Positions 2,640 to 7,107 of a stretch of 64,000 nt of DNA are shown in pieces; within the stretch, counting starts at the first letter, position 1; each line of letters opens with the position of its first letter. This stretch comes from a virus. Under the pieces are notes generated by a model that did no database searches, had not been told where the DNA came from, and was given only the letters and a program-made list of their open reading frames with translations. A program made the position numbers and the translations under genes. The DNA lies in the IMG/VR virus record IMGVR_UViG_3300049846_002551, positions 1 through 64,000 of that record; one strand, written 5' to 3'.

Positions 2640-2936
2640 ATGGATATTCTGGTTACAAAACCGACTGACCTAGAAGGTTACGTATTAATCCCCAATGTGA
2701 CGACTGAAAAAGTTCACAGTTACTTCCGCGAAACGGAGCCTGGGGTTTGGAAAAACATTTCTGCTTTAACGTTTGATACGCTGGAGCGCAACGCATCGAT
2801 TGATTTATTGTTAATTGAGATCAAACGTGCGAAAAACGATATGGATGCTGTTATTATTCGGTTAGGAAGCCCATTGGAAGCCTTACAAGATTTTGGCTTA
2901 CGCTTTGATGCTCACTCGATTTTCTTTAATCTTTAA
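2640..2936 (+). CDS. Small alpha/beta protein of unknown function
   Basis: A 98-residue protein (MDILVTKPTDLEGYVLIPNV). It has an acidic, helical middle (ERNASIDLLLIEIKRAKNDMD) and no recognised motif. It is transcribed from its own leaderless promoter. Its 3' end abuts, and by a few bases overlaps, the predicted terminator of the minus-strand small RNA at 2934-3026, so the two transcripts converge here. Confidence 0.6.
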   Translation: MDILVTKPTDLEGYVLIPNVTTEKVHSYFRETEPGVWKNISALTFDTLERNASIDLLLIEIKRAKNDMDAVIIRLGSPLEALQDFGLRFDAHSIFFNL

Positions 2937-3026
2937 AGAAAAGAAGGTGGCAAGCATCCATACTCACCACCTTTGTTGTGTAGCCGCCTTCGGGGGAGGT
3001 GAAATCCGGCTACACGTAACACGGAC
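2934..3026 (-). ncRNA. Predicted small RNA 1 with anti-SD-like loop and own terminator
   Basis: On the minus strand GGTATACT (3033-3040) would start an RNA near 3026. It folds GTGTAGCCG (3015-3007) against CGGCTACAC (2986-2978), 9 bp, with a 20-nt loop containing GATTTCACCTCC. A second stem follows, AAGGTGG with CCACCTT (2973-2967 and 2950-2944), then CTTTTCTTT, which fits an intrinsic terminator. UCACCUCC matches the anti-Shine-Dalgarno tail of 16S rRNA. The 12-nt loop block is identical to that of the hairpin at 3667-3704. No open frame lies here. Boundaries are predicted, not measured. It could instead be only a bidirectional terminator between converging genes. Confidence 0.4.
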
Positions 3027-3042
3027 GATAAAAGTATACCAT

Positions 3043-3639
3043 TTAAGCGGCGTCTGAGAGCAAATTTTCTTTTTCTTCGTCTAAACAGGTTCGTAATTTG
3101 GTTTGAATGTCGCTTATGATTCCTGCAACTCGTGATTCGCTAAGTTGGAGTTTTTTAGCGCAAGTTTTATGATCCCAGCCTATGAGTTTGAGTTCAAGAA
3201 CCTGTTGTTGCCTGATAGTACATCGATGCCATAGCTTTTCGATTAGTAAATCTGTTTCAATGATAGATTGTGCGTTGTGCGCTAAGAAGTTTGATTTCTG
3301 GATTGAAGAGGACGAGACTTCAAGTAGATACGTAAAATCGTGTCCAATCATATTGTCCGGTAATCGTGGATACGTTCGAGTGCTACCGTGCGATTTTGAA
3401 TAACGGCGAAGGCATTGAACCATTTCTTTCTTAATCATGTAGTAAACATATGTGATTAGTTTTGCCCCAACTGAAGGATCGTATTGCTGGAGCGCACTAA
3501 AAACCGCGATTCTTCCTTCTTGAATCAAATCTTCTATAGTGATTGAATAAGGTGTCGCAATACGAATATATTTTTTCGCTAGTGTGTGGATTAGCGGTAA
3601 CCATTTTTCAATCTCTTTCTCGACGTTCGCTTCTATCAT
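3043..3639 (-). CDS. Sigma-70-family RNA polymerase sigma factor (regions 2 and 4)
   Basis: A 198-residue protein. Residues about 30-85 are sigma region 2 (IEDLIQEGRIAVFSALQQYD, then LITYVYYMIKKEMVQCLRRY), covering the core-binding helix and the -10 reading helix. Residues about 140-185 are a region-4-like helix-turn-helix (IRQQQVLELKLIGWDHKTCA, then LQLSESRVAGIISDI). Region 3 is short or absent. The start is set by TATAAT at 3652-3647, 7 nt before the ATG, giving a leaderless mRNA; the frame upstream of it would overlap a stem-loop. It probably directs host RNA polymerase to phage promoters. It is flanked on both sides by predicted small RNAs that share a loop sequence. Confidence 0.8.
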   Translation of the reverse strand: MIEANVEKEIEKWLPLIHTLAKKYIRIATPYSITIEDLIQEGRIAVFSALQQYDPSVGAKLITYVYYMIKKEMVQCLRRYSKSHGSTRTYPRLPDNMIGHDFTYLLEVSSSSIQKSNFLAHNAQSIIETDLLIEKLWHRCTIRQQQVLELKLIGWDHKTCAKKLQLSESRVAGIISDIQTKLRTCLDEEKENLLSDAA

Positions 3640-3646
3640 ATTGCAG

Positions 3647-3652
3647 ATTATA
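3647..3652 (-). promoter_or_regulatory. Consensus TATAAT, leaderless promoter of the sigma gene
   Basis: The minus strand reads TATAAT here, 7 nt before the ATG at 3639. It is the best -10 match among the leaderless promoters. It lies directly after the T-run that ends the upstream stem-loop RNA, so the sigma gene would be transcribed independently. Confidence 0.6.
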
Positions 3653-3656
3653 CAGT

Positions 3657-3727
3657 TAAAAAAAGTCCCGTATGGTGCAAAAGGAGGTGAAATCACCATA
3701 CGGGCATCGTAATGGTTCTGACTTACG
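3657..3727 (-). ncRNA. Predicted small RNA 2 ending in an anti-SD-loop hairpin terminator
   Basis: On the minus strand GGTACAAT (3741-3734) would start an RNA near 3727. It contains CCCGTATGGTG (3704-3694) paired perfectly with CACCATACGGG (3677-3667), 11 bp, and then ACTTTTTTTAACTG, a textbook intrinsic terminator. The 16-nt loop reads ATTTCACCTCCTTTTG. UCACCUCCUUU is identical over 11 nt to the 3' tail of bacterial 16S rRNA. The plus strand shows the reverse, a perfect AAAGGAGGTGA. There is no open frame. It may be a regulatory RNA, or simply a terminator separating the upstream unit from the sigma gene; the conserved loop favours more than a terminator. Confidence 0.4.
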
Positions 3728-3761
3728 TTTAAAATTGTACCTGGCCTTTTTTCTATAAATG

Positions 3762-3796
3762 AAAACCCTCCGCTCGAAAATCAAGCGGAGGGTTTT
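3762..3796 (-). terminator. Strong intrinsic terminator after the Ig-like gene
   Basis: A 13-bp perfect stem, AAAACCCTCCGCT (3762-3774) with AGCGGAGGGTTTT (3784-3796), encloses a 9-nt loop. It has A/T runs on both sides and so can act in both directions. It lies just downstream of 3816..4241. Confidence 0.8.
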
Positions 3797-7042: not shown

Positions 7043-7073
7043 ACTTTTAAAGCTTACATTCACCCTGTCCGTA

Positions 7074-7107
7074 AAAGCCACCTCGGTATACTGGGGTGGC
7101 TTTTTTG
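7074..7107 (+). terminator. Intrinsic terminator
   Basis: AAAGCCACC pairs with GGTGGCTTT around a 12-nt loop, followed by a T-run. It separates the small structural gene from the adhesin genes. The loop happens to contain GGTATACT. Confidence 0.8.

Follow-up and report, generated by a model that had tools for sequence, protein, structure and literature searches.

Background

The closest described systems are small RNAs (sRNAs) of bacteria which carry anti-Shine-Dalgarno (anti-SD) sequences. In the alpha-r14 sRNAs of alphaproteobacteria (NfeR1, Sinorhizobium meliloti), an anti-SD motif placed on dissimilar stems defines the family (PMC10746234). NmsRA and NmsRB of Neisseria are sibling sRNAs with anti-SD stretches which pair with the SD sequences of their targets (PMC5362039), and the siblings SisA-D (alphaR8) of Caulobacter share anti-SD stretches that pair likewise with target SDs (PMC12559287). 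In cyanobacteria, Yfr10 keeps a conserved motif in the loop of its stem, with little other conservation (PMC6778093). As regards phages, manA and wcaG RNAs are found in cyanophage or marine phage genomes, manA being a 200-nt candidate riboswitch (PMC2864571, PMC9964418), and searches of a review of phage sRNAs gave antisense and Hfq-type examples and CfrI of cyanophage S-PM2 (PMC12197685).

An earlier note on the locus treated here, a pair of phage hairpins with a common anti-SD-like loop on either side of a sigma factor gene, stated that no described phage system of this kind was known to its author. For phages the statement stands as far as the searches of that review extend, in which an anti-SD pair of this kind was not found (PMC12197685); it does not stand for the principle itself, which is known in bacterial sRNAs (PMC10746234).

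The phage and its probable host

The window, meaning the whole 64,000-nt stretch of DNA analysed, corresponds to bases 1-64000 of a linear IMG/VR virus record of 93,936 bp (~94 kb). The record holds portal, prohead protease, major head and tail genes and two sigma genes, and it also codes for an intein-bearing family-A DNA polymerase, for DnaB-like and DEAD helicases, and for RecA, thymidylate synthase and dCMP deaminase; the phage is probably lytic. Among isolated phages Microcystis phage Mvi-JY20 is the nearest, with matches to more than 20 predicted proteins at 25-46% identity and in a mostly conserved order. For the sigma gene flanked by the hairpins, the closest counterpart is that of Synechococcus phage S-CBWM1 (33% over 113 aa). 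On account of the Mvi-JY20 protein matches and the S-CBWM1-like sigma factor, a cyanobacterium is the likely host. Both the DNA polymerase A (L003:14-3388) and a 901-aa protein (L003:12505-15210) bear LAGLIDADG intein-type insertions; the Mvi-JY20 polymerase also shows an apparent insertion, probably an intein, at a different site.

Two hairpins with a common loop block

The pair of hairpins with a shared loop is real. Both were recovered at exactly the positions and with the stem lengths first proposed (Table 1), their loops measuring 20 nt and 16 nt, and the 12-nt block said to be common to them (GGAGGTGAAATC on the plus strand) occurs at these two places and nowhere else in the 93,936 bp. 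The -10 motif that had been located upstream on the minus strand is present in the form of GGTANANT-type elements 17 and 29 nt before the hairpins, and the terminator features amount to an intrinsic terminator for each of the two putative RNAs, termed RNA1 and RNA2. The resemblance of the loop to the 16S rRNA 3' tail was also borne out, the 12 nt of UCACCUCCUUUU in RNA2 being identical to the cyanobacterial pre-16S 3' end; in fact, it coincides with the 3' part of the pre-16S rRNA of cyanobacteria (GGATCACCTCCTTTTAGGGAGACC in at least 80 genome stretches). The 5' end of RNA1 was placed 7-8 nt past its -10 element and the 3' end within the T-rich run.

Table 1. Features of the RNA1/RNA2 locus, and promoters and leaderless-like genes of the phage
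Feature	Position	Strand	Remarks
RNA1 -10 element, GGTATACT	3033..3040	-	just past the sigma stop codon; recognisable -35 absent
RNA1, ~93 nt (putative)	2934..3026	-	both ends placed from promoter and terminator positions
RNA1 hairpin, 9 bp	2978..3015	-	loop GAUUUCACCUCCCCCGAAGG
Shared block in RNA1 loop, GAUUUCACCUCC	2995..3006	-	
RNA1 terminator hairpin, 13 bp	2944..2973	-	4-nt loop, then CTTTTCTTTA
Sigma factor gene, 198 aa, Sigma70_r2	3043..3639	-	without SD; start codon 7 nt past TGTATAAT
Probable -10 of leaderless sigma mRNA, TGTATAAT	3647..3654	-	downstream of RNA2 terminator
RNA2, ~70 nt (putative)	3658..3727	-	5' end placed by the -10 and 3' end by the T-run
RNA2 hairpin, also its terminator, 11 bp	3667..3704	-	loop AUUUCACCUCCUUUUG, then ACTTTTTTT
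Shared block in RNA2 loop, GAUUUCACCUCC	3683..3694	-	UCACCUCCUUUU equals cyanobacterial pre-16S 3' end
RNA2 -10 element, GGTACAAT	3734..3741	-	recognisable -35 absent
Terminator hairpin, 13 bp	3762..3796	.	insulates RNA2 from the minus-strand operon upstream
TTGACAAAACTAC-N9-10-GGTATNAT promoters	1308, 5789, 80975, 83859, 84313, 86422, 86778, 91691, 92693	+	record positions
Leaderless-like genes	3639-, 4241-, 5756-, 15469-, 16131-, 49097+		window positions, strand after each; 3639 is sigma, with TGTATAAT
Leaderless-like genes	74094+, 83292+, 86812+, 91645-, 91725+, 92728+		record positions, strand after each

The folding z-scores were -3.8 for RNA1 and -4.1 for RNA2, and 0 of 200 shuffles folded equally well. 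Counting both strands, the word TCACCTCC has three copies in the 94 kb, of which two belong to this locus, and CACCTCCTT has a single one, in RNA2. In the RNA2 loop the block is fully open (unpaired probability at least 0.87); in that of RNA1, a weak inner stem mostly holds the first two bases of UCACCUCC (0.13 and 0.16), the other six of the eight being unpaired at 0.92 or above. The two stems are unrelated, and little is common to the RNAs outside the loop and the promoter. When the Rfam covariance models were run against the window, no family scored above gathering, nor did the model of the manA RNA (RF01745) match there.

Both hairpins could be regarded as ordinary terminators with loops alike by chance or through recent duplication, given that terminators lie in both regions and other terminator hairpins occur in the record. 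Nevertheless, an 11-mer common to the loops of hairpins of at least 8 bp appeared in 0 of 60 locally shuffled genomes, the word shared here is an anti-SD, and simple duplication fails as an explanation because the stems are unrelated. Moreover, among the other clean intergenic terminators of the phage none pairs a loop of more than 10 nt with an anti-SD core, and the arrangement recurs in a marine phage, L176 (see below), all of which makes this reading very unlikely. While a plain terminator would show no conservation of the loop sequence, in these hairpins the loop is precisely what is conserved. In general, ordinary explanations fit poorly.

Function could also reside in the plus strand, with GGAGGTGAAATC acting as a hairpin-held SD or as a DNA-level operator; AAAAGGAGGTGAAATC-ATG is a common ribosome-binding site (RBS), and many matches in the IMG/VR scan were SDs of opposite-strand genes. 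This we hold to be extremely improbable, since ATG, GTG and TTG are absent at a usable distance past either plus-strand GGAGGTG copy and the anti-SD of L176 likewise lies on the U-run strand. In the present locus, both promoter-like sites and both U-runs lie on the minus strand, which is therefore considered the functional one. By reading, the shared block was seen to fall in different frames of the two open reading frames (ORFs) that cross it, and a shared peptide is thereby excluded. No minus-strand gene is present 3' of RNA1 for ~1 kb, only short frames overlapping plus-strand genes, so that RNA1 is not an mRNA leader; with no gene running through RNA1, a sigma gene without SD and differing frames, a coding or cis-RBS role is unlikely.

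The terminator hairpin of RNA1 could end the sigma mRNA too. Its arm at 2963-2974 reads AAAGGUGGUGA on the minus strand, one mismatch from a full SD, and shortly precedes a possible 11-codon ORF. This arm is complementary to the RNA2 loop at 10 of 11 positions (-14.0 kcal/mol, one mismatch), a pairing that was spotted post hoc.

Promoters, sigma gene and leaderless-like genes

The promoter regions of RNA1 and RNA2 are alike (GGTAYAMTTTTA..CGT). By itself, GGTANANT is not over-represented in the genome, and it is position, not genome-wide frequency, that makes these -10 elements credible. In this context, 37 terminator-like sites were counted in the record, and these two are the ones for which a promoter motif lies in intergenic DNA no more than 130 nt away, with no coding gene in the interval. 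The stronger phage promoters follow the pattern TTGACAAAACTAC-N9-10-GGTATNAT, the -35 part of which is present in nine copies; the -10 elements of RNA1 and RNA2 are of the same kind, minus the -35, as those of several genes, perhaps middle or late ones. The AAACTAC found after the -35 of the conserved promoter is unusual and may be an operator.

A leaderless-like geometry, with the start codon 6-8 nt past the end of GGTANNNT or of a near match, was observed in a number of genes. Mvi-JY20 behaves likewise, spacing 14 accounting for 13 cases and spacing 15 for 10, compared with ~3 at other spacings. Apparently about a dozen or more of the phage mRNAs are leaderless, including that of the sigma gene between RNA1 and RNA2. 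Many phage genes have no SD, and SD-like sequences are still present at ~40. Cyanobacteria make less use of the SD than most bacteria do.

The position of the sigma gene, directly flanked by RNA2 upstream and RNA1 downstream, suggests another possibility, namely that the sigma mRNA has RNA2 as an attenuator in its leader and RNA1 as its 3' end, with the loops tuning termination or read-through in cis. A U-run does follow the RNA2 hairpin, and an open frame crosses this hairpin into sigma. However, sigma possesses its own TGTATAAT 7 nt before the ATG, past the RNA2 terminator, and offers no SD for the loop to bind, while both RNAs have -10 elements of their own and RNA1 has no gene downstream; for these reasons the attenuator is judged rather unlikely.

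Three further elements were observed. At 7073-7104 of the window, a plus-strand terminator hairpin has GGTATACT at its centre, possibly a promoter inside a terminator. In Mvi-JY20, L005:6066-6165 is an unannotated candidate stand-alone sRNA, in which a TTGACA..GGTAAGAT promoter is followed by a terminator hairpin whose loop, CCUGUCCUCUCCC, is 13 nt long and rich in C/U. In the same phage (L005-L007), the hairpin AAAACTTTGA-NNNN-TCAAAGTTTT is repeated at more than 12 places (e.g. 3250, 9193, 12466 and 43954) and is probably a repeated terminator or mobile element.

Recurrence in a marine phage

No close relative was found in which conservation of the hairpins inside the phage's own lineage could be compared. 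Usable relatives were not obtained with sigma, portal and DNA polymerase against IMG/VR, with the polymerase against GTDB contigs or with the major head protein against 386 cyanobacterial genomes, and blastn of RNA1 and RNA2 against phages gave zero matches. A search for kin by promoter did find contigs with TTGACAAAACTAC promoters, but the intein was their only match and they were discarded. A hairpin with an anti-SD loop is absent from Mvi-JY20, a more distant relative, and from the region beside the sigma gene of S-CBWM1, inspected by reading. All close-relative searches having failed, IMG/VR was therefore searched for the architecture itself (TTTCACCTCCTTT, 8-22 nt, TTTTTT).

Most of the 82 places read from this search had no stem, as expected from SDs of opposite-strand genes. 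The word GATTTCACCTCCTTTT, found at 25 places in IMG/VR, was set aside, being mostly such SDs, and an apparent hairpin with the loop in another sequence (L011), the one other candidate inspected closely, was rejected because it lies inside an 892-aa gene and its z-score of -0.5 is not significant. One further case was found, in an unrelated marine phage of 57 kb and 33% GC (IMGVR_UViG_3300000116_000020, the L176 mentioned above). Its hairpin, CCCCGTCTGTG-TTTTTCACCTCCTTTTGG-CACAGGCGGGG-ATTTTTTTT, has a terminator stem of 11-15 bp (15 bp abutting the T-run), the loop UUUUUCACCUCCUUUUGG and a z-score of -5.6; with flanks shuffled, a set of 79 should contain 0.007 loci in which a G+C-rich stem of at least 11 bp abuts the T-run. 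In the 386 cyanobacterial genomes, the search pattern that led to L176 had no match.

When the stems of RNA2 and L176 were aligned by reading, from the loop outwards, 11 of 11 pairs were kept, five of them changed on both sides. These are pairs 4 to 8, which read, for RNA2/L176, G-C/U-A, U-A/C-G, A-U/U-G, U-A/G-C and G-C/C-G. Selection on the loop predicts such a pattern, in which the stem changes with its pairing intact around a constant loop. The earlier note had proposed that relatives keeping the stems and losing the loop would point to plain terminators; in the one comparable hairpin, that of L176, the outcome was the opposite. The RNA2 and L176 hairpins are either homologous or convergent.

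A manA RNA (RF01745) is present at L176:3527-3732 (81.4 bits against a gathering score of 55.2), and the L176 hairpin starts ~20 nt past it. Because the manA RNA lies directly upstream, this hairpin ends a longer structured RNA. The combination of a manA RNA with an anti-SD-loop terminator may hint at what manA RNAs do.

Proposed function and targets

That the locus specifies discrete minus-strand RNAs whose anti-SD loop is under selection is well supported by the anatomy of the locus and by the L176 covariation. We give about an even chance to the reading in which RNA1 and RNA2 are sibling small non-coding phage RNAs with such a loop, most likely acting in trans as translation repressors. Each would be transcribed on its own from a -10-only phage promoter, the two flanking the sigma gene, and would expose the anti-SD loop, GAUUUCACCUCC with an extension in RNA2, on a stem whose sequence is free to vary. 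The partners of the loop would be the SD regions of chosen host mRNAs, or of phage mRNAs produced at a different time; by pairing there it would compete with the 16S rRNA, so that ribosome binding would be blocked. Weighing against this reading are the partly closed loop of RNA1, the absence of an anti-SD-loop hairpin from Mvi-JY20, the many phage genes that have no SD and the limited use of the SD in cyanobacteria.

The targets may belong to the host or to early phage genes, or may be SD sites in general. Pairing with ribosome-binding sites, as had been suggested, remains plausible in the form of a general SD complementarity of loop 2, although no single target stands out. In fact, loop 2 reached -10 kcal/mol or lower on 17 of 86 phage start regions, compared with 2.3% of random windows, and 4 of 200 scrambled loops did equally well. 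The best duplex, between RNA1 and the RBS of the DnaB-like helicase (-19.8 kcal/mol), was not retained as a target, since 0.6 such cases would be expected by chance.

Protein-bound hairpins, too, typically show a conserved loop on variable stems, and both RNAs lie near their promoters. The loops might thus be protein- or ribosome-binding sites, either mimics of the 16S tail titrating a translation factor, a ribosomal protein or an RNase, or antitermination or processing signals, SD pairing being incidental. This is unlikely, though to be borne in mind, because conservation falls precisely on the anti-SD core, which RNA2 and L176 extend along the pre-16S tail, and a protein partner is not indicated.

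A different role for trans-acting RNAs would be that of global decoys of the anti-SD tail, which, during infection, would sit on the SD sites of mRNAs from the host and from early phage genes and so shift translation to leaderless phage mRNAs. The idea is coherent, as leaderless-like genes exist, but not proven, as ~40 genes keep SD-like sequences, and we consider it distinctly doubtful.

Comparison with known systems

If trans-acting repressors of this kind are real, the anti-SD principle of bacterial sRNAs is used independently by phages in the form of short stand-alone RNAs, and the union of seed and terminator in one hairpin, as in RNA2 and L176, would allow host translation to be redirected in a compact manner. 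They would also provide an RNA-level hypothesis, linked to leaderless phage mRNAs, for translational takeover in freshwater cyanophages, about which little is known, and the recurrence beside a manA RNA would be a new clue to that orphan RNA class. In cyanophage S-CREM1, manA is followed by a tRNA gene and not by such a terminator.

With the alpha-r14 sRNAs, which are trans-acting antisense RNAs to mRNAs, the locus has in common that an ultraconserved anti-SD motif recurs unchanged from hairpin to hairpin, in unpaired regions on strongly differing stems. Nevertheless, alpha-r14 carries CCUCCUCCC on three hairpins within a single RNA encoded by a bacterial chromosome, whereas here two separate short phage RNAs carry GAUUUCACCUCC; with one such hairpin per RNA, they fall outside a family defined by CCUCCUCCC in three hairpins of one RNA. 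They do resemble the wider class of anti-SD sRNAs, the loop being unpaired and, as far as sequence motifs indicate, each RNA having its own promoter and terminator and no coding gene. NmsRA and NmsRB are 70% identical and, as SisA-D, bacterial, whereas RNA1 and RNA2 are alike only little outside the loop and promoter. Yfr1 and Yfr10 are likewise short sRNAs, of the probable host group, but cell-encoded; the Yfr1 motif is ACUCCUCACAC, not the 16S tail, and this core motif is absent from RNA1 and RNA2 by reading of their sequences. CfrI, likewise a phage non-coding RNA, is a cis antisense one. What appears to be new is, therefore, the anti-SD principle as stand-alone phage RNAs, with seed and terminator fused in RNA2 and in L176.
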